From NCBI GenBank assembly GCA_002887195.1, contig PJAB01001761.1, positions 1 through 12,370 on the forward strand: DNA of 12,370 nucleotides, in the 5' to 3' direction. The position numbers and the translations under genes are program-made. Shown here piece after piece: positions 264 through 12,370 of this stretch; within the stretch, counting starts at the first letter, position 1, and the number at the start of each line of letters is the position of its first letter. The notes beneath the pieces are model-generated. The model was not told the origin of the DNA and made no database searches. It worked only from the letters and a program-made list of their open reading frames with translations. The DNA is from Chrysochromulina parva. Lineage: Eukaryota; Haptophyta; Prymnesiales; Chrysochromulinaceae.

Positions 264-3200
264 ATGCTCGTGTCCTTTCTTGGCTTTACCTCGGAGGATT
301 CCCTTCAGCAGAAGCTTGATGATAAAGAGAATGCGCTGCAGGCCCACATAGCCCTCGCTGAGGAGCTCGCCACCGAACTGGATGCACACAAGGAAGTGAA
401 CGCCGAACTGAGGCAGCACGTGCATCAGATGGAGGATGAGCTGGCAGCAGCGCTGGCAAAGGCAGAGGCCGCCTCGGCAAGTGCCGCCTCAGCAAGTGCC
501 GAGGCGGAAGCTGCTGCCCGCCTGTATGCTGCGTCGGAGCAGGATGCCGCAGCCTTGGAGGCAAAGGTGGTAGTGGCAGAGCTGAAGGTGGCCACTCTGT
601 GCGCAGACGGAGCTGAGGCCATCAGCCGGGCAGCGAGCGCGAAAGAGGCGGCAGAGTCAGCCAAGGAAGCAGCATTGTCCGAGCGCCGCGACATGGAAGC
701 AAAGGTCCGTGCGGCTCAAGAATCAGCCAAAGCCGCACGCCAGGAGGCCGACGTGACGATTCGCCAGGCCGCGGAGATCACCGAAGCAGCCGAAGCAGCC
801 AGGCAAATAGCAGGTGCTGCGCGCTCGGCGATGGAGGAGGAGCTCCGGATCGCTCGCAAAGAAATGGCGTTGGCATGCGAGCGAGAGGTGGCGGCAAAGG
901 CAGATGCGCTGGCATCTCGTGCCGAGGCCGCAGAGACGATGCGGCAATCAACACTCGAGGCGAAGCTGGCGGCCGCAGCGCGATTGGACCTCGATACTGC
1001 TTTGAAAGCTGCGCAAGATGAGACGAAGCTGGCGGCCGCATCGCGATTGGGCCTCGAGACCGCCTTGAAAGCTGCGCAAGATGAGGGCATGAAAATGGAA
1101 GCGGCGTTTCAGGCGGCGGTGGGTGAACAGCTCGAGCTCGAAGCCGCGTTGAGAGCCTCGCGAGTCGAGTGCATCGAACTCGAGGGCGCATTGACGGCCG
1201 CGCGAGATGAGAGCTCCAAGCTCGACGCTGCATCGCAAGCAGCGCGGAAGGCATCGAATGCGGCGTTGAAGGCGGCACGAGACGAGGTTGATGCGGCCGT
1301 CGATCGCGCAAATGGCTTGGAGTTGGCCATGGCGAAGGCATTCGCCATGGCAAAGGCCGACGCGGAGCAAGCAGCCAAGGCGGCCAAATTAGTGACGGAG
1401 GCGGCGGTAGCATCCGCGATCTCCGAGGCAAAAGCCGAGGCGAAAGCCGAGGCGGCGCAGGCCGCTCAGACGGAGCTGGATGCAGCCGTAGCGGCGGCAA
1501 CGGACGAGGCCAGAGAAGAGGCCGCGCGGGAGTTGGGGGCGGCGGTGGCGTCGGCGAAGGCCGAGGCGCAGCAAGCTGCGAAGGCGGAGCTGGAGGCGGC
1601 CGCGAAGCAGCTTGATGCGCTCAAGGAGACTTCGAGGGAGCAGCTGCGCAAGCTGCTCGATGAGCGCAAGCATCTCAAGGCCGCGCACGAGGAGGCCCTA
1701 GCAGAGGCCAAGGAGGCAGCCAGGGCAGCACAGGAGATGGCGCTGGCGGCGGCCGAGGAGGCAGCCAAGCGTGCTCAGGAGGACGCGCTGGCGGCGGCCG
1801 AGGCAGCGGCCAATGCGAAGCTGGAGGCGGCCGTGGCGGCGGCTCATGCGGAGCTCGACGCAGCCGTGGCGTATGGAAAGGATGAGGCGCAGCAGGCGGC
1901 AAAGGCTGAGCTGGAGGCGGCGATGGCGGCCGCACATGCGCAACTGGAGGCAGCGGTGGCGGCGGCAGCGGCTGCAGCGCGAGAGGAGACCCTCGCTGAC
2001 CATCAGGGCGCCCAACAGGAATCCCTCAGAGCCGCCGTCGAGGCTGCCAAGGCGGAGGCGGCCAAAGTCCAGGCCGCGGCGGTGGCGGCAGCAGTGGCCG
2101 AGGCGGTGGCGGAGGCGGCGGAGGAGGCGCAAGCCGCACAGGCGGCAGCGGTGGCAGCGGCCGTAGAGGAGGCGATGGCTACGGCGCGCGAGGCTGCCGC
2201 TTTCCCAGTCGCCGTCGGCGCCCCGAGCGCTGCCCCGAGCGCCGCTGTTGAGGCGGCCGCGTCGCCACCCTTATTTGGAAAGGAAGGACTCTCGGAGCAT
2301 CCAAATCAGGAAGGGCACCTCTCGCAGACGAGACCGCCGCCCGATCTGCTTACAGTCAAGGAGCTGCAGGCCCTGCTCCGGCTCAAGCTGGGCGACGACG
2401 CGAAACTGCCCAAGAAGAAGGTCGAGCTGCTCGCCTTGTACATGCGCCATTACGATGGGGCTGTGGAGCGTGCTGACGTGGCCGCTCTCGTCCCGCCTCC
2501 AATGGACTCCTCTAACGGCTCTAACGGCTCTAACGGCTCTAACGGCTCTAACGGCCCGCCTCCAATGGACGCCATGGGGCCGCCGCCCAGCATGCCAGCA
2601 CCTCTGCCGCCGGTGGCGGCAGGACCTGCTGACGCGGACGAGACGCAGCGGCGAGCGACGGAGGCATTGCTTCAAGCCGAAGCAGCTCGCCGGGCATTGC
2701 AAGAGGAGCTGGCAGCAGCACGGGAGGTGGCGGCAGTGGCGGAGAAGCAAGCGGCGGCGGCTGAGGCGGCAGCTGAGGCGGCGCGTGCCGAGGCTGCTGA
2801 CATGGCGAGGCGAGCAGCGGACGCCATCCACGAGGCCGAAGCTGCCCGCCTGGCACTGCAAGATGGGGTCGCGGCGGCTGCCACCGCCGCCCAAGAGATT
2901 GCTCGTGGAGAAGCTGCTCGCCTCGCGTTGCAAGATGAGCTGAGCAGAGCTCGCGAAGCAACGGCCGCGATGGCGGAGCGTGCGGCGGCTGCAGAGGCGG
3001 CCGCTGAGGCGTCGCGGGCGTTGCAAGACGAGTTGGGTAGAGCCCGCGAGGTGGCTGCAGCGGCGGAGGAGCGTGCGGCGGCAGAGGCGGCAGCTGAGGC
3101 GTCGCGGGCGTTGCAAGACGAGTTGGGTAGAGCCCGCAAGGTGGCTGCAGCGGCGGAGGAGCGTGCGGCGGCTGCAGAGGCGGCCGCTGAGGCGTCGCGG

Positions 3201-4034
3201 GCGTTGCAAGACGAGTTGGGTAGAGCTCGCGAGGCGGCTGCAGCGGCGGAGGAGCGTGCGGCGGCTGCAGAGGCGGCCGCTGAGGCGTCGCGAGCCGACG
3301 CTCAGCTCATCTTGCGAAACCAAAAGGATGGGCACGTTGAGGCCACCGCTGCGCGCCTCGCGTTGCAAGACGAGTTGGGTAGAGCTCGCGAGGCGGCTGC
3401 AGCGGCGGAGAAACGAGCGGCGGCGGCGGAGGCGGCCCTCCATCTCCTTGCTGAGTCAGCGGATGCTGTGACGCAGGATTTATCTTTGATTGCACGTCCG
3501 CGTCAAGCTGCCGACACGGCGCGAGTTGGGGAGGCATTGCAAGATGGCGTCGCGGCCGCGGCGGCCGCCGCTAAGGAGCTCACCAAGAATCTCCCGAGCG
3601 CAGCGTTAGGAAGGATCTCGCGCTTCTTTGGTGAGGCAGACGTTGGCAAGGCCAGCTCGTCTCCTCCCACCATCTTGACGCCGACGCCGCCTCGAGATCT
3701 CCCGCCTCCAGATCGGCCAGGGGCGCCATTGGCCAGCCAATTCCCCTCCGCCGCTGCTGCTGCTGACGATGATGGCACGGCACGTGTCACCGCCACCTCC
3801 GAGGCATCGCCTTCAGCCGTTACGTCGCCGGCGCTCGCCGACAATGGAACCGCTCAGCGCTCGATGCAGCGCTCGATGCAGGCCGAGTCGGCTGCATTAC
3901 GGGCGACGTTGGACGCATACGAGGCGCGGCTAGGGAGGAAGCTCAAGAAGAGCGATCTCGCGGCGGACCCTCAGATGGCCTCGACGTACCATCGCTATAT
4001 AGAGCTCCGGCAGAAGTACACGGACACGGTGTGA
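264..4034 (+). CDS. Alanine-rich coiled-coil protein with SAP-like insert
   Basis: This is an uninterrupted 1256-aa frame. The ATG at 264 is the first after an in-frame TGA at 234. Residues about 10-640 are Ala/Glu/Lys-rich heptads typical of a long coiled coil. A Pro/Ala linker follows. Residues about 694-732 (LTVKELQALL... then KKKVELLALY) resemble a SAP or HeH-type helix-extension-helix, a fold often used for nucleic-acid binding. Next come an SNG repeat (about 750-765) and a second coiled coil (about 794-1066) built partly of 31-aa repeats. The last 45 residues (1212-1256: an Ala-Tyr-Glu helix, GRKLKKSDL, then YHRYIELRQKY) resemble the conserved helical motif shared by Sld2/RecQL4 N-termini and FAM13 proteins. 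No signal peptide or membrane segment is visible. A structural or chromatin-associated role is possible but is only inference. The coding potential is strong; the function is unknown. Confidence 0.85.
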   Translation: MLVSFLGFTSEDSLQQKLDDKENALQAHIALAEELATELDAHKEVNAELRQHVHQMEDELAAALAKAEAASASAASASAEAEAAARLYAASEQDAAALEAKVVVAELKVATLCADGAEAISRAASAKEAAESAKEAALSERRDMEAKVRAAQESAKAARQEADVTIRQAAEITEAAEAARQIAGAARSAMEEELRIARKEMALACEREVAAKADALASRAEAAETMRQSTLEAKLAAAARLDLDTALKAAQDETKLAAASRLGLETALKAAQDEGMKMEAAFQAAVGEQLELEAALRASRVECIELEGALTAARDESSKLDAASQAARKASNAALKAARDEVDAAVDRANGLELAMAKAFAMAKADAEQAAKAAKLVTEAAVASAISEAKAEAKAEAAQAAQTELDAAVAAATDEAREEAARELGAAVASAKAEAQQAAKAELEAAAKQLDALKETSREQLRKLLDERKHLKAAHEEALAEAKEAARAAQEMALAAAEEAAKRAQEDALAAAEAAANAKLEAAVAAAHAELDAAVAYGKDEAQQAAKAELEAAMAAAHAQLEAAVAAAAAAAREETLADHQGAQQESLRAAVEAAKAEAAKVQAAAVAAAVAEAVAEAAEEAQAAQAAAVAAAVEEAMATAREAAAFPVAVGAPSAAPSAAVEAAASPPLFGKEGLSEHPNQEGHLSQTRPPPDLLTVKELQALLRLKLGDDAKLPKKKVELLALYMRHYDGAVERADVAALVPPPMDSSNGSNGSNGSNGSNGPPPMDAMGPPPSMPAPLPPVAAGPADADETQRRATEALLQAEAARRALQEELAAAREVAAVAEKQAAAAEAAAEAARAEAADMARRAADAIHEAEAARLALQDGVAAAATAAQEIARGEAARLALQDELSRAREATAAMAERAAAAEAAAEASRALQDELGRAREVAAAAEERAAAEAAAEASRALQDELGRARKVAAAAEERAAAAEAAAEASRALQDELGRAREAAAAAEERAAAAEAAAEASRADAQLILRNQKDGHVEATAARLALQDELGRAREAAAAAEKRAAAAEAALHLLAESADAVTQDLSLIARPRQAADTARVGEALQDGVAAAAAAAKELTKNLPSAALGRISRFFGEADVGKASSSPPTILTPTPPRDLPPPDRPGAPLASQFPSAAAAADDDGTARVTATSEASPSAVTSPALADNGTAQRSMQRSMQAESAALRATLDAYEARLGRKLKKSDLAADPQMASTYHRYIELRQKYTDTV
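961..1086 (+). repeat. 63-bp tandem duplication in coiled coil
   Basis: Two adjacent copies (961-1023 and 1024-1086) encode 21-residue units beginning KLAAA(A/S)RL and ending ALKAAQDE. Twenty-one residues is exactly three heptads, so the duplication keeps the coiled-coil register. The copies differ at only a few positions, suggesting a fairly recent event. Confidence 0.85.
2492..2570 (+). repeat. 9-bp TCTAACGGC array between direct repeats
   Basis: Five copies of TCTAACGGC (2511-2555) encode SNG repeats. They are bracketed by a 16-bp direct repeat, CCCGCCTCCAATGGAC, at 2492-2507 and 2555-2570, encoding PPPMD on both sides. The structure of flank, array and duplicated flank is the same as in the candidate introns of the BROMI-like gene. 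Here the repeat boundaries carry no GT...AG pair, so it remains coding. Confidence 0.85.
2976..3410 (+). repeat. 31-residue coiled-coil repeats (about 93 bp)
   Basis: Repeat units start at 2976, 3069, 3159 and 3252. They encode blocks of the form ERAAAAEAAAEASRALQDEL followed by GRAR(E/K)(V/A)AAAAE. The second unit is one codon shorter. The fourth is split by an insert of about 22 residues (ADAQLILRNQ...EATAARLA) before the LQDELGRAR half resumes. Near-identity at the DNA level shows recent tandem amplification. Confidence 0.85.
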
Positions 4035-5112: not shown

Positions 5113-8100
5113 ATGGAGCGGGAAGTCCTCGACGACTTAGTCTTGCGCTTCGCGGCGCTCGCGCGCGAGCTATCGCCGCAGCTGCTGGCGCAGCTGCCGG
5201 CGAGCCGCGGACCCGCAGTGGAGCCTCTCGCCGCGCTGCTCGAGCAGTTATTGTACGCGCTTCCGGCGGCGGATGCGCGGCACCACCGCTATCGACTCAT
5301 CCGCCACGTGTGCGAGCGACTTCGTGCGACGCTCGCACCGCTCGTGCCCGAGCTCGAGCCGCTGGGGAGCGTGGATGTCTCCACGTCCGATCCTGCCGAT
5401 GAGTCCAGCCTCGTCACGGCCTGCGTCGAGCACGACGCCTTCCGCCGGCTTTGCGCCATGCTGCACTCGGAGCTCTCGGTGTTGACCAGCCGGCCTGAAT
5501 GGGCTGCGTCCCTGGCTGATGTGCTCGCGGACGATGAGCATGGGCCGCCCTCGAGCAGCGCGTCCGAGGGCAGCGTCGGCGGCGCCGGCACGAACGACGA
5601 CCTCGACCGCTGGCTACACGACGAGATGAATGCCGACCTGCCGCCGTTCTACGAGCTGCCTGGGCTGATCACCGGCTTGTACCGCGCGGACACGGCGCTC
5701 TCCGCCTGGGCGCGGCTGCGCTCCTTCTCCGCGAGCGACCTGCTCGAGTGTGATCAGTGGGAGCTGCTCGTACCCGCGCTCCGCCACGCGCTCTGTGCCC
5801 GTCAGCTCGCGCCTCCAGCCGTGCTCCAGATCGTCGAGATGCATACGAGCCTCTTCGACGACGCGCCGCCGGCGCAGCGTGCGAGCGTGCTGCTCAACGT
5901 GGCGGCGCTCGTGGACTGCATGGGCGGCGGCGGCGGCAGCACATCCGAAGGGGCGTGGGCCACGCCGACCGCCATGCGTTGTGCGCAATTGCTCTGCCGA
6001 GGCCGTTGTGACCTTTCCGACGATGGAGTGGTGCTTGGGGCACTTGAACTCTCGACCTTGCTCGCGACCCTCTTCCGCCTGGCCGCCGCGCCCCCGTCCG
6101 ACGCCGTTCGCCTGCCCTCGGCGCCCGGGTTGGCTGTGGGTGCGCCCGGGGCGAACGCATCGGGTGCGAGCTATGCGGGTACTCCTGTACCGGTACGCTG
6201 TGCGGGCCTTCTTGCAAGCTTGGATCCGTCCGCGAGGTGGCTCTCGCGGCTGCTCTCGCGAAGCCATCTGCTCGTGCCGACGTGGCGTCAGCTCGTCGAC
6301 TCTGGCCTGCTCAAGCAAGCAGAGGCGACTGCGCGGCAGCCGCTGCCGAGAATACCGGCTTCGATCGCCTCCGATTCGCCATCATCTGATCGGCCGTTGA
6401 GCTCGGCGGAGGTGGCGTTGGCCATCTCGCTGCATCACACTTGTGTCCTTGGGATCTCGGTGCGCCAAGCAGTCGGTCTGATGGCGTCTCTGATGGCGTC
6501 TCTGATGGCGTCTCTGATGGCGTCTCTGATTGCGGCTCTGAGTGCGTCTCTGAGTGCGTAGCCAGGTCGGTCAGAGTGCGTCTCTGATCGCGTCCGTCCT
6601 TGCATGCAGGTGCGCCACGCGGTCGGTCTGCAGACGGTGCGCACCTGGGCGGCGGCGGCGAGGTACGAGGCCGGCGCCGGCCCGATGGGAGCAGCGGCGC
6701 GCTGTCATGCGGCGGATGCGGGGTATGACGTGGCATGGGCTGCGGCCACGATCCCGACGCTCCTCGAGCGGATCTCGGAGATCCATACCCAGACCTCGGA
6801 GATGCACTCTCTTTCATCGGAGATCCAATCTCCGATCGCTCCCTCGGAGATGCACTCTCTTTCATCGGAGATCCAATCTCCCTCCGGAGGCAGGCTCGGG
6901 AGTCCTTTTGCGCAGACGGCCCGTGCGCTCGCGGCGGCGGCGCTCAGCGCGGCCCTCGCGAGCCTCTGCCAGCCGCAGTGCCGCGATGCCCTAATTTGGA
7001 CCGATGCGGCGACTTCCGCGCTGCTCGCGCCGCTGCTCGCGTTGGGCGCCGAGTTGAGCGCCGAGGAGGCCTCAGAGCCCAACACGGCGCCGCCACTTCC
7101 GAGCATGCACACGCTCCTGGTCGCGAAGAGCGTGTTGCCTGCTGCCCTCGCGCTCGCTGCCCCTTCCACAGCTGCCCCTTCCACAGCTGCCCCTTCCACA
7201 GCTGCCCCTTCCACAGCTGCCCCTTCCACAGCTGCCCCTTCCACAACTCAAGCCCAACACGGCGCTACCCTTTCCACAACTCAAGCCCAGCCAGATTCGC
7301 TCGTCGCAAGATCACCTTATTTGGCAAGTGCGCTCGCAAGATCGCCTGAAGCGCTCGGCAGCCTTGTGGGGAATCTGGGACGGGCCGTGCTGCGCCTGCT
7401 GAGCTTGCCGCTCCCACCCTCGCCGAATTTCCCCACAGCCACCCTCGCGAGAGCATTTCCCCACAGCCCGCTCCCGCCCTCGCCGACGACGAAGGGGATG
7501 GCCGGCTCGTTGGCTGGCTCATCGGTGGCACCACCACCGGCGGCGGCCCTGCTGGCGCACGAGGTGGGCGCGGGCTGTGCGGAAATGCTCTCGCGCCTTC
7601 TGGTTCCACGCCCAGCCGCGTTCGGCGTACCTGCAATTCGTAACGAACTACGCGCCGTTCTGGGCACCGCCGTCGCTACGGCGTCACAGCCTCGGAGCAT
7701 TTCCCCACAGCCTCGGAGCGAGCCTGGGGCGCGAGAGCACTTCCCCACAGAGAGCATTTCCCCACACGAGCCTGGGGCGCGAGAGCACCAGCTCGTGGCG
7801 GCAGCGCTTCTGATGCAGACGCTCTGTGCCAGCCACCGCGCCGCGAATGAGCTGCCGCCTCCACTCCTGCCGCTCCTCGCGCACAGCCTTCTCCCGCCAT
7901 CAGCAGCCATTCATCCAGCCGTTGAGCTCGTGTCGCTGGCGGCTCCAGCAGGACCATTTCCCCGCAGCCCATCGGACCCATTTCCCCACAGCCCATCGAA
8001 CCCATTTCCCCACAGCCAAACGGACCCAATTCCCCACAGCCCTTCGGACTCGCTCGTGGGACAACGGCAGGCGGCCATTCTGGCGGGGACGCCCCTTGGT

Positions 8101-10371
8101 TTGAGAGCTCTCGGGCGGGCCGGTGTCCTCGAGGCGCGCGCGGCCGCCTTTGTGACGGCTGCGCAGGGAGGGTGGGAGAGCGCAGAGGCGCTGCATCGGG
8201 CGCTGATGCCGGGGGAGGCGTCCCAAATATGGGAGTCGCTCACGGCGCTCACGAGTCTGATCGCCTGGCCGCATGCACCCGCCGCCTGCTCTGAGGCCGG
8301 GGTGCGTCATGGCTTCAGTCGGCCCCTCGCCCGCCTCGCTATGCTGCCCTGGGTCGATGACGTGGCGGTGGTCGGGGTGGCGCCCGTCCCGGCGCCGCCC
8401 GTGCCGAGCGCCGTACCGAGTACTTTGCCCATCCATTACGAGGAGAGCCATGCAGCGGGCGCCGTACCGAGCGCTTCGCCCATCCATTATGAGGAGAGCC
8501 ATGCAGCGGGGCTGCTGCTGCTCAGCGTGCTGGCGGCCGATGCGCGCACGGCATTCGCGCTGCGTCGGCGCTGCGGGCTCGTGAGCCACCTGATACGAGC
8601 CGCCGAGCGCGCCGTGTTGAGCGCCGAGGGGGAGGAGGAAGAGGGGGAGGAGGCAGGGGGGGAGGGCGCACCGCCGGCTGAGTGGCCGGTGGCCTCGAGC
8701 TCAGCCGTTGGTGAATGGGAGTGGGAGCGTCGTCTCTTCGAGACACTCGACGGCCATAGTGCGGCCGGTGCTGGGGGCGGCGGTGCGGGGGGCGGCGGTG
8801 CTGGGGGCGGCGGGGCGGCTGTGGCCGTTCGAGTGCTCGATCTGAACGCGCTGTCCCGAGCGCGCCTCGTGGTGTCGCTCACCCAAATCGGGACTCCCTC
8901 GGAGTGGGAGGTGCCCGACACGGCGCCAACCCCCGCCCACCCGTCGTTGCTCGCCCTCGCTAAGCACGAGGATCATCCGCTCACGCGCCTGCTGCGGAGC
9001 GCGTACCAAGACGGCGCCCAAGACGGCGCCCACCCGCCCGACACGGCGCCCAACCCGACCCAAGGGCAAGGATGCTGGGAACGCGCCGTCGTGGCATTGG
9101 ACGGGTCGTCATCAGCACGCGTGCGCGCCGCCGCAGCGTTGTTCACAGCGCCAAGCGTGCGCGATGTGCTCGTCATCATCTGGGCTGCCCTTGAGGTACG
9201 TGGCCTCACGGCTCTCCCTGCAGACATTCTCGACACGCTCCCGGCCAGCAGCGCGAGCAGCGCGAGTAGCGCGAGCAGCGCGAGCAGCGCGAGCAGCGCG
9301 AGCAGCGCGAGCAGCGCCAGCAACGCCGGCAGCGCCAGCAGCGCCGGCAGCGCCGCCCCCCCTGGCCCCGACCTCACCGTGGGGAGCGGTGAAGGGGCGG
9401 CGCCGTGGTGGGCGGCGCGTGGTGAGTGGGCGTGTGCTGCTCGCCAACTCCTTCGTTATACCCAGCGGATGGGCGCGCCACCGTTTCACACCTCCTCCTC
9501 GTCGTCGTCGTCGTCCGCCGCCGACGCCTCCGCCCTCGATGCCCGACACGGCGCCCCCAGCCTGAGCCTCGATGGCCGACACGGCGCCCTTAGCCTCAAT
9601 CTCGATGCCCAGATTCCCGCCCTTTTGAGCGCGATGGCCGCCACCAACAACGGGCCGGTGCCCGGCACAGCGCCCGCCGCCTTCGACTGGTTCGGGGCGC
9701 TCGTCGGTGCACTGCTCGCCGACACGGCGGCGGCACGCAACGTGCTCACGGCGCTCGCCTCACACGCGGCGGCGCCATATCTCTACCCATCTCGCGAGCA
9801 ATCTCGCGAGCTATCTCGCGAGCTCTCTCCCGAGCACGCGTCGGCCGCAGCGAGGGGCGGCGCGGACGCGTCGTGGTCCGACCCCAGGCTCCCACAGGCA
9901 TTCCCACAGGCATTCCCACAGGCATTCCCACAGGCATTCCACAGGTCCGACCCCAGGCTCCCCTCATGGCGCGGCATGGATGTGCTCGTCGGTCTCGCGG
10001 AGGAGATCGTCGCTGTGGAATTGCCCGAGTTGCATGCGGCCCTCGTGCGCGCGGCGCTCCCGCCCAGCCTGCCCATGGCCCGATGGCTCCACGTCCACTG
10101 GCTCAACGTGGTGCGATGGCGCTCCCTGCTTGCCGCGACGCTCCTCCCTTTGCTCTTGGGCGCCGACTGGCATGCCTACCTGTGCGTGGGTGCGATGCGG
10201 GCAGTGTGGCCCGCCGTCCAGCGGTGCGCGCACCCTTCCGAGGTGCACCTGCTCCTGCTCCAGCCTGTCGAGACCTATGAGGTGCTCAGTGCGACGCCGT
10301 ACCTGCTCGAGCTGCGTGAGCGGCACGCGGAGCGCTGTCTCGCCGCCCTCGCAGATGCCGCCCGTCGGTAA
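5113..10371 (+). CDS. TBC1D32/BROMI-like large protein, spliced
   Basis: One frame runs from 4987 to 10371 and is broken only by TAG at 6559-6561. Removing a GT-AG intron at 6460-6609 (150 nt, phase 0) joins it into about 1702 aa. I chose the ATG at 5113 (MEREVLDDLVLRF) because the 42 codons before it have no protein character. Residues about 162-275 (LPGLITGLYR... WELLVPALRHAL... LFDDAPPAQRAS) look like paired armadillo/HEAT helices as in BROMI N-termini. The last 98 residues (about 1605-1702: RWLHVHWLNVVRW, LLGADWHAYLCVGAMR, YLLELRERHAERC) resemble the end of its degenerate TBC domain. BROMI works with the kinase CDK20/CCRK in ciliary length control. The middle is packed with in-frame low-complexity repeats, making it longer than the animal protein (about 1250 aa). 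Some repeats may be unspliced or optional introns. The homology call comes from pattern memory and is moderate. Confidence 0.6.
6460..6609 (+). other. Intron, GT-AG, 150 nt, phase 0
   Basis: The exon ends ...GGGATCTCG at 6459. The intron opens GTGCGCC and closes with a pyrimidine-rich tail CGTCCGTCCTTGCATGCAG; the next exon restarts GTGCGCC. Splicing removes the only in-frame stop (TAG 6559-6561) and gives ...HTCVLGIS/VRHAVGLQTV... CTGAT, a branch-point-like word, occurs in each 12-bp repeat and again near 6585. The 150-nt length is a multiple of three. No transcript is available, so the exact junctions are inferred, but they are the only choice within the flanking repeat that gives GT and AG together. 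Confidence 0.75.
6481..6552 (+). repeat. 12-bp tandem array ATGGCGTCTCTG inside the intron
   Basis: Four perfect copies of ATGGCGTCTCTG (6481-6528) are followed by two diverged copies (6529-6540 and 6541-6552). Another AGTGCGTCTCTG lies at 6575-6586. The array is open in the gene's frame (MASL repeats), so conceptual translation would wrongly include it as protein. Confidence 0.9.
6794..6881 (+). repeat. 40-bp direct repeat, 48-bp period
   Basis: Two identical 40-bp copies (6794-6833 and 6842-6881) are separated by 8 bp. Each contains GGAGATCCAATCTCC, a 6-bp inverted repeat around a 3-nt loop. In frame they encode SEMHSLSSEIQSP twice. The period is a multiple of three. Confidence 0.9.
7156..7245 (+). 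repeat. 15-bp tandem array GCTGCCCCTTCCACA
   Basis: Six consecutive copies encode APSTA-type repeats. Each junction spells CCCCTTCCACAG, a pyrimidine tract followed by CAG, so the array is also a row of strong-looking 3' splice acceptor sequences. A related half-copy (TTTCCACAACTCAAGCCCA) follows at about 7270. Confidence 0.9.
7407..7486 (+). repeat. 19-bp direct repeat flanking acceptor-like motifs; possible GC-AG intron
   Basis: CCGCTCCCACCCTCGCCGA (7408-7426) returns with one mismatch at 7468-7486, an offset of 60 nt. The sequence between holds two ATTTCCCCACAGCC words. A cut at 7407-7466 would begin GC and end CAG, giving a GC-AG intron of 60 nt that preserves frame. It may equally be simple coding duplication. 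Confidence 0.55.
7685..7788 (+). repeat. Nested 21-bp and 48-bp duplications
   Basis: CACAGCCTCGGAGC occurs at about 7685-7698 and again 21 nt later. CGAGCCTGGGGCGCGAGAGC occurs at 7719-7738 and 7767-7786 (offset 48). TTCCCCACA words sit between the copies. All offsets are multiples of three. Confidence 0.8.
7951..8045 (+). repeat. 24-bp tandem array with TTCCCCACAG cores
   Basis: Four units (7951-7973 one base short, then 7974-7997, 7998-8021 and 8022-8045) each carry (A/T)TTCCCC(A/G)CAGCC. They encode the SDPFPHSP-type repeats. The core again looks like a 3' splice acceptor. No donor-like GT begins a unit. Confidence 0.85.
8408..8509 (+). repeat. 51-bp tandem duplication
   Basis: Two copies (8408-8458 and 8459-8509) encode a 17-residue unit AVPS(T/A)(L/S)PIHYEESHAAG. 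They differ at a handful of sites. Neither copy boundary gives a GT...AG pair, so it is treated as coding. Confidence 0.85.
9247..9354 (+). repeat. 9-bp array AGCAGCGCG (Ser-Ser-Ala)
   Basis: About twelve 9-bp units run from AGCAGCGCG into diverged AGCGCCGGC and AGCGCCAGC forms, encoding SSA/SAG repeats. It is a typical coding minisatellite with degeneration towards its 3' end. Confidence 0.85.
9535..9600 (+). repeat. 33-bp tandem duplication carrying GACACGGCGCC
   Basis: Two 11-residue units (LDARHGAPSLS and LDGRHGALSLN) are followed by a partial third (LDAQIP). The nucleotide core GACACGGCGCC also occurs elsewhere in this gene in a different reading frame (as PDTAP), so it recurs as DNA rather than as a peptide motif. 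Confidence 0.8.
9789..9834 (+). repeat. 12-bp array with CTCGCGAG palindromes
   Basis: CTCGCGAG, a perfect 8-bp palindrome, occurs at 9791-9798, 9803-9810 and 9815-9822, exactly 12 bp apart, with a degenerate fourth copy after it. It encodes SREQ/SREL repeats. Confidence 0.85.
9875..9962 (+). repeat. 19-bp direct repeat around a 12-bp array
   Basis: GGTCCGACCCCAGGCTCCC at 9875-9893 is repeated exactly at 9944-9962. Between them are four copies of CCCACAGGCATT and a shortened end CCACAG. The structure parallels the intron at 6460-6609: direct repeat, 12-bp array, CAG, direct repeat. Confidence 0.9.
9876..9944 (+). other. Candidate in-frame intron, GT-AG, 69 nt, phase 2
   Basis: The stretch opens GTCCGACC and closes CATTCCACAG with a pyrimidine-rich tail; the following exon restarts GTCCGACC. 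Removing it leaves ASWSDPRLPSWRGMD with the frame intact. Keeping it adds 23 residues of PQAF repeats, also without a stop. Sequence alone cannot tell intron from coding repeat. The exact correspondence of GT and AG to the repeat boundaries favours an intron or an optional one. Confidence 0.4.
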
Positions 10372-11252: not shown

Positions 11253-12370
11253 TCACCCCACATGCACATTTCCATTGTTTTCGATGGCGAAAGCCGGTGC
11301 AAAGCGCAGGATGGTGCTGGGTGGCACTCCGGCGGACCTGAGCATATCGAAGCTTGACATTAAGCTCGACATTCTCAGGTCGAAGCTCGCGGGCAGCGCG
11401 ATTGACGTCAACGAGGAGCAGCCAGAGAAGGCGCCATCACCGAGGCTCGTGAGGCCGGTGGGCAGCGTGATCGACGTCATCGAGGAGCAGTTCTTGAAGG
11501 CGCTCCTACCGATGCTTGTGAGGCCGGCGGGCAGCTCGATCGACGTCAACGAGGAGCAGAGCTGGAAGGCGCACTCACCGAGGCTCGTGAGGCCTGCAGG
11601 CAGCTCGATTGACGTCAACGAGGAGCAGCCATAGAAGGCGTGATCACCGATGCTTGTGAGGCCGGCGGGCAGCTCAATCGACGTCAACGAGCCGCAGAAC
11701 TGGAAGGCGCACCCACCGATGCTCGTGAGGCCTGCAGGCAGCGCGATCGACGTCATCGAGGAGCAGTCATAGAAGGCGAACTCACCGATGCTCGTGAGGC
11801 CGGCAGGCAGCTCGATCGACGTCATCGAGGAGCAGCCCTCGAAGGCGTGCAGACCGAGGCTTGTGAGGCCCACGGGCAGCTCGATCGACGTCAACGAGGA
11901 GCAGCCCCAGAAGGCGTACTCACTGAGGCTCGTGAGGCCGGAGGGCAGCTCGATCGATGTCAACGAGGAGCAGCCCCAGAAGGCGCCCTCACCGATGCTC
12001 GTGAGGCCGGCAGGAAGCGCGATCGACGTCATCGAGGAGCAGGCCTCGAAGGCGCTCCTACCGATGCTCGTGAGGCCGGAGGGCAGCGTGATCGACGTCA
12101 ACGAGGAGCAGCAATTGAAGGTGTCCTCATCGATGCTCGTGAGGCCCGCGGGCAGCTCGATCGACGTCATCGAGGAGCAGCCCCAGAAGGCCCTCTCACT
12201 GAGGCTCGTGATGCCGGCGGGCAGCTCGATCGACGTCAACGAGGAGCACTCATAGAAGGCATACTCACCGATGCTTGTGAGGCCGGCAGGCAGCTCGATT
12301 GACGTCAACGAGGAGCAGCCCCAGTAGGCGCCCTCACCGATGCTCGTAAGGCCGGCGGGCAGCGCGATCG
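11253..12370 (-). CDS. BspA-like leucine-rich repeat protein (LRR_5), 5' end outside the window
   Basis: The minus-strand frame is open to the right edge, so the N-terminus lies outside; a TTG near 12308 is just an internal Leu codon. The visible 371 residues hold 13 complete 23-residue repeats of the form LTSI(E/A/T)LPAGLTSIGxxAFxx followed by CSS, plus partial ones at both ends. This is the BspA/Treponema-type LRR signature in which a short beta strand and a Cys-Ser turn alternate. Variable positions cluster at GE-x-AF-xx, as expected for exposed residues. The array ends in about 40 non-repeat residues (FDLRMSSLMSSFDML... ENNGNVHVG). No membrane segment is seen in this part. Such proteins are abundant in many protists and some bacteria, often at surfaces; the role here is unknown. 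Confidence 0.85.
   Translation of the reverse strand, partial: IALPAGLTSIGEGAYWGCSSLTSIELPAGLTSIGEYAFYECSSLTSIELPAGITSLSERAFWGCSSMTSIELPAGLTSIDEDTFNCCSSLTSITLPSGLTSIGRSAFEACSSMTSIALPAGLTSIGEGAFWGCSSLTSIELPSGLTSLSEYAFWGCSSLTSIELPVGLTSLGLHAFEGCSSMTSIELPAGLTSIGEFAFYDCSSMTSIALPAGLTSIGGCAFQFCGSLTSIELPAGLTSIGDHAFYGCSSLTSIELPAGLTSLGECAFQLCSSLTSIELPAGLTSIGRSAFKNCSSMTSITLPTGLTSLGDGAFSGCSSLTSIALPASFDLRMSSLMSSFDMLRSAGVPPSTILRFAPAFAIENNGNVHVG
11385..12370 (-). repeat. 69-bp tandem array encoding the LRR units
   Basis: A gap-free 69-bp period continues to the window edge with about 14 units. High nucleotide identity between units, including synonymous positions, points to recent expansion or gene conversion. 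Each unit carries ATCGACGTC on the plus strand. The antisense strand is also largely open in two frames because of this periodicity, but those frames are not genes. Confidence 0.9.

Follow-up and report, generated by a model that had tools for sequence, protein, structure and literature searches.

We consider it probable that the genome of Chrysochromulina parva harbors a large introner-like family, in which 5'-truncated intron tails are pasted in front of a GT and a long target duplication of variable length provides the donor. We came to this view from a single predicted intron in the 12,370-nt stretch of DNA analyzed here (the window, contig C1761 of a 45-Mb assembly, which was the genome searched throughout), and from related introns in other genes.

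A predicted intron that opens with a copy of exon sequence

The predicted intron interrupts a BROMI/TBC1D32-like gene (Table 1). Pfam searches with its two unspliced exons gave no match at E 0.001, and the name therefore rests on two homologues: P0001 (1256 aa), retrieved with exon 2 as the query, and P0002 (1458 aa), retrieved with the spliced protein. Both are translations of ENA contigs, genomic or transcript, and were compared as proteins. P0002 matches the Pfam family BROMI_C with 39.5 bits (cut-off 25), while P0001 falls just below the cut-off at 24.6. The start codon of exon 1 was picked to agree with these homologues. When the window gene is spliced from 6459 to 6610, its product is identical to P0001 at 418 of 1202 aligned residues and to P0002 at 557 of 1354, and the alignment runs ungapped for 18 residues before and 12 residues after the predicted junction, which reads LHHTCVLGIS/VRHAVGLQ in the window and LHHVCVLGIALRYAIS and LHHTCFIAICLRQATA in the homologues. 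This gap-free alignment supports the splice model, and the product reading GIS/VRHAVGL in the original prediction fits both homologues. The length of 150 nt preserves the reading frame, and an in-frame TAG lies within the interval at 6559-6561. Retention of the interval, or use of a donor within the left copy of the duplicated segment, would add residues missing from both homologues; we rejected a donor at 6475, within that copy, which would give VRQAV-VRHAVGL where the homologues show a single copy. Judged by these comparisons, the interval is very probably an intron with its donor at 6460 and its acceptor at 6609, as had been predicted when the donor was assigned to the left copy and the acceptor to the right.

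Table 1. Features of the predicted intron and its flanking exons (window positions)
Feature	Position	Strand	Basis
Exon 1, BROMI/TBC1D32-like gene, 449 codons	5113..6459	+	ORF; alignment to P0001 and P0002
Intron, 150 nt, GT...AG, phase 0	6460..6609	+	Removal gives gap-free homologue alignment; in-frame TAG if kept
Exon 2 (ORF listed from 6604)	6610..10371	+	ORF; alignment to P0001 and P0002
X', left copy of exon 2 start, gives donor GT	6460..6480	+	19/21 identical to 6610-6630
12-bp array TCTGATGGCGTC, 6.4 copies	6477..6553	+	Tandem repeat; overlaps last 4 nt of X'
Partial extra copy of the border between X' end and array (AGGTCGGTCAGAGTGCGTC)	6560..6580	+	By eye
Intron tail GTCCTTGCATGCAG with acceptor	6596..6609	+	Ending ATTGCATGCAG recurs in L005
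X, right copy, exon 2 start	6610..6630	+	Identity with 6460-6480

The segment at 6445-6480 had been described as repeated at 6596-6630, and an alignment of the two, with one gap, is identical in 29 of 36 columns (20 of 22 in the core pair 6459-6480 / 6609-6630). This similarity is clear for the downstream half only. The copy of the exon start (X') begins exactly at 6460 and has an ungapped score of 15 over its 21 nt, whereas 40 foreign exon starts tested at the same position scored at most 8, and none of 12,347 other window positions matched at more than 16 of 21 bases, against 19 of 21 here. The downstream half of the duplication is thus beyond chance. By comparison, the agreement of the 15 bases to the left of the junction (GTCCTTGGGATCTCG / CGTCCTTGCATGCAG) was equalled at 1 of 108 other G/GT sites, and of 4119 15-mers sampled from the window, 61 reached its level; we set this upstream half aside as a signal and regard it as probably a chance-level match. 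A possible junction overlap, TCTG, was noted by eye in the intron.

These sequence comparisons suggest that the intron was very probably gained by an event that doubled the exon bases 3' of a G/GT proto-splice site. To that extent the original idea of gain through duplication of such a site holds, but its symmetrical AGGT form is unsupported, because the downstream half alone is clearly duplicated and sequence of the array and tail types is dispersed across the genome. The intron had also been thought to be caught young. Both copies are still readable, but with 2 of 21 bases mismatched and a diverged tail the window copy does not rank with the youngest, as several corresponding copies in other genes are identical over their full length; judged by these differences, it is older than those perfect copies.

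The remainder of the interval is occupied in part by a 12-bp tandem array. The predicted length of exactly 150 nt stands, and the array decays toward 6596. CTGAT motifs within it are possible branch points. Searches with a doubled array unit returned 224 matches at up to 3 mismatches against 1 for the reversed control, on which we rejected a local origin of the array; with array and tail-type sequence dispersed across the genome, a local event alone does not explain it. Elsewhere, array loci fall by eye in introns of other genes, one of them SNF2-like (by eye only). A motif scan of six sampled 10-kb stretches (60 kb, GC 63-66%) found 2 array clusters, so only some introns are marked by arrays. 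The window tail TTGCATGCAG differs from the common tail described below; TGATTGCATGCAGGT has 10 genomic matches, and no foreign tag was recognized in the tail. By its array, layout and exon copy the window intron fits the introner family, its tail differs from the common one, and it is a putative member.

Several other features of the window were observed. Within exon 2, a 51-nt tandem duplication at 8408-8510 encodes two HYEESHAAG copies, one of which is present in both homologues, and in-frame arrays of TTTCCCCACAG-like units at 7425-7770 and 7950-8040 are missing from the homologues. These arrays resemble the ends of introns; they may represent introns that lack stop codons, or else expansions of the coding sequence. 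A 1256-codon ORF at 264-4034, rich in Ala and Glu, contains tandem repeats, 93-bp ones among them, and has no Pfam match at E 0.001. On the minus strand at 11253-12368, a leucine-rich repeat protein of the BspA type (Pfam LRR_5, 361 bits) runs off the contig end.

Recurrent tails and exon echoes across the assembly

As in introners, near-identical intron tails occur at many unrelated loci, in different genes. The tail 18-mer GATKGCSTCCCTCATCAG has 1200 exact matches in the assembly and, when followed by GT, 787, with none for the reversed control in either case; another tail, CATTTCCCCACAGGT, has 7 matches (control 0). At C43:45696-45986, C42:42381-42630, L003 and L007, blocks made up of an intron and the following exon start stand in tandem in copies that are almost identical, which points to frequent local duplication.

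We looked for the window layout at other family acceptors, which were chosen by the tail and the following GT alone, from the first 30 listed places and 20 further regions among the 787 matches. The sampled regions hold 53 distinct sites, and 40 were counted after we dropped sites with identical 50 nt, kept only the last site of any cluster within 300 nt, and removed sites near locus ends. An echo was defined as a repeat of the exon start 30-300 nt upstream with a score of at least 10. By this definition, 22 of the 40 acceptors have an echo, compared with 1 of 1554 cross-site pairs and 2 of 251 shifted starts. First-pass controls at score 10 ran higher (63 of 952 AG/GT sites and 41 of 450 GT sites) because they came from the same repeat-rich loci, which hold further such introns, and we therefore substituted the cross-site pairs and shifted starts. 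The remaining 18 acceptors, without an echo at score 10, may be older, have shorter echoes or be of different origin.

The echoes are locus-specific, matching the start of the intron to that of the downstream exon, as in introners, and are longer than the 3-9 bp reported for target duplications. In 20 of the 22 they span 14-31 nt, and the remaining two, at 65 and 70 nt, lie in tandem blocks; beyond the 40-site sample there are longer ones, of ~44 nt in L012 and ~54 nt, with a gap, in L097. Homology ends no more than 3 nt from the splice border in 16 of the 22 echo introns (one of which, L078, has a near-tail, CCTCATCAA, preceding the left copy), while in the other 6 a CCTCATCAG tail stands before the left copy, giving a tandem block of intron plus X. 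A G precedes the left copy in 18 of the 22 introns, and at many sites X' follows, by eye, coding sequence and not an intron end. Also by eye, a junction overlap, TG, was seen in L045 and extra bases, CCC, in L072. In a different arrangement, the echoes of the L012 first intron (where the echo sits behind an AG) and of L014 lie within a longer intron and not at the donor, as would be expected had a segment crossing an intron-exon border been duplicated; the second intron of L012 opens with a 10-nt echo.

Splicing at these junctions would restore continuous proteins in several genes. Frames were open for 90 nt on both sides in only 13 of the 22 echo introns when spliced and in 2 when unspliced. 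Domain matches span the echo junction in L048 (Fn3-like, 72 residues on 71 profile positions), L080 (glycosyltransferase 8), L015 (PAS), L060 (kinase) and L095 (PDZ), and the motor domain of the kinesin L012 runs through both introns once they are spliced. The USP15-like L072, aligned to 6crn, continues through the junction with two single-residue gaps nearby, while in L046 and L087 the domain matches stop short of the junction and are uninformative. From the gap-free window alignment and the domains that span several junctions, splicing would, as in introners, leave the mRNA unchanged.

Identical tails also tie unrelated genes together. Of five insert tags searched, two have relatives in other genes, and those of L074, L092 and L078 were found in the genome at their home locus only. 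The L072 tag occurs in L095 (C1194:11400-11950) and L096 (C1486:9420-9970) and, with one mismatch, in L097 (C1194:4500-5050). In L097, the first ~54 nt of the intron echo its own exon, and the last 43 nt are common to L095, 9 of them from the L097 exon. The first 26 nt of the L095 intron echo its own exon perfectly, and the last 59 nt of this intron, 13 of which are exon-derived in L095, are repeated in L096; L072 and L095 have 48 nt in common. The simplest direction of copying would be from L097 to L095, and from there to L096 and L072. Members of this group have 5-7 nt in common beyond the AG. A second group, L098 and L045, has 2 nt in common there, and its tag is not firmly tied to an exon.

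How such introns may arise

Under the mechanism we favor, the 3' part of an existing intron, with CTGAT-type units, a pyrimidine stretch and the terminal AG, would be pasted into an exon directly before a GT, mostly after a G, with a variable 5' truncation of the insert. Insertion would double a variable stretch of target downstream of the insertion point; the left duplicate, X', would be kept in the intron and become the donor, the right duplicate, X, would stay exon, and the pasted tail would give the branch point and AG, such that the mRNA would be unchanged. Later, short units, and often entire blocks of intron plus X, would multiply by local tandem duplication. Speaking against this account are the 18 of 40 acceptors that lack an echo at score 10, the uncommon tail of the window copy, the three of five tags found at home only, the inner echoes of L012 and L014, and the number of echo introns with open spliced frames, no more than 13 of 22. 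The machinery might be reverse transcription that is primed at a nick and copies intron-containing RNA, or it might be DNA template switching at a staggered break, as the fixed AG end, variable 5' truncation, GT at the left edge and variable right edge resemble what either would leave. LINE retrotransposition is a case of nick-primed copying. These edges do not decide the mechanism, since tail-based sampling and selection for exact splicing partly impose the fixed AG and GT. More tentatively, and with confidence slightly short of even, we suggest that introns reproduce by their tails alone, that the recipient gives the 5' splice site through a long variable duplication, and that an exon stamp from the template gene can persist. 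On this reading, the 5-7 nt beyond the AG common to source and recipient in the chain from L097 hint that copying is primed by pairing at the AG/GT border.

A final layout identical to that of the window would also result if an existing intron-exon border were duplicated in tandem, the exon copy becoming the donor and the old intron providing branch point and acceptor, as for the potato RdRp intron (PMC4974935). There too, the new intron begins with an exon copy that gives the donor, and branch site and acceptor derive from an existing intron. The doubled blocks of intron plus exon start at C43, C42, L003 and L007 agree with this explanation, as do the echoes within longer introns in L012 and L014. 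An existing intron just upstream of the exon copy is present in L012 but absent in the window, where conserved coding sequence precedes X', as it does by eye at many echo sites, and the potato case is a local duplication, whereas tails common to unrelated genes require movement. We therefore regard border duplication as unlikely. A cut-and-paste, MITE-like DNA transposon introner with target duplication, a mode known for other introners (PMC9860276), seems to us less likely again. Inverted-looking insert ends (TGATGAG...CTCATCA), seen by eye in L055 only, agree with it; against it, echo length varies (14-31 nt in 20 of 22, compared with the reported 3-9 bp), and the inserts have variable 5' ends and carry exon pieces of another member.

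Still less probable is the Rogers model (1989, per PMC4974935), in which an exonic AGGT segment undergoes symmetrical tandem duplication and the array grows later between the copies. It would place both splice sites at the same point of the repeat, as found here, and the 29 of 36 matching columns and the GTCCTTG common to the upstream sides agree with it. That model, however, requires both sides to be doubled, and the upstream match in the window is near chance level (1/108, 61/4119); 16 of the 22 echo introns also lose homology no farther than 3 nt from the border, and array and tail sequence is genome-dispersed. We give very little credence to the remaining explanation, that there is no intron and the interval is an in-frame coding minisatellite. 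The array is in frame and 150 is divisible by 3, but the in-frame TAG, the lack of the segment in both homologues and the similar arrays that break conserved domains at other loci speak against it.

Relation to known intron gains

The origin of introns is a long-standing question, and sources of new introns have rarely been identified (PMC4974935). The family we propose shares with the introners of Fig. 2B in PMC9860276 dispersed, near-identical introns, a carried acceptor, a donor from the duplicated target and an unchanged mRNA. It differs in that the duplication there is 4 bp, while here it is mostly 14-31 nt and variable, and in that the inserts here have lost 5' sequence and can include pieces of an exon from another member. 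Earlier introner families have target duplications of 3-9 bp, according to the summary in the same paper. Introner family 5 of Chrysochromulina sp., shown in its Fig. 2C, also consists of introners with a target duplication, but this is 4 bp, and the element brings the 5' splice site while co-opting the 3' site, opposite to the arrangement here. Neointrons of Daphnia pulex are attributed to staggered double-strand breaks (PMC4202315); their repeats, as given there, are 4-12 bp, whereas ours are longer (21 nt in the window) and the filler belongs to a dispersed intron family. Single repeats of such length are not unprecedented, as direct repeats of 4-30 bp (mean 11.4) are reported near the borders of all 213 introns examined in PMC11782384. 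In the open-licence literature, including the consulted portions of PMC9860276, PMC4202315, PMC7789003, PMC11782384 and PMC4974935, we found no description of dispersed introns whose target duplications are long and variable and whose inserts carry pieces of exon.

One lesson is that where a segment around a single intron is duplicated, a dispersed intron family can have left that footprint. For individual introns one can read where the insert landed, which target was duplicated, where the insert was truncated and, in some cases, which relative was its source or sister, and since DNA transposition, nick-primed reverse transcription and break repair predict different outcomes, a genome-wide count of these features could discriminate among them. 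If copying by tails is correct, insertion before any GT can yield a working intron, and if the stamp chains from L097 to L095 and on to L096 and L072 are true, a genealogy of intron gain would be readable from one genome.
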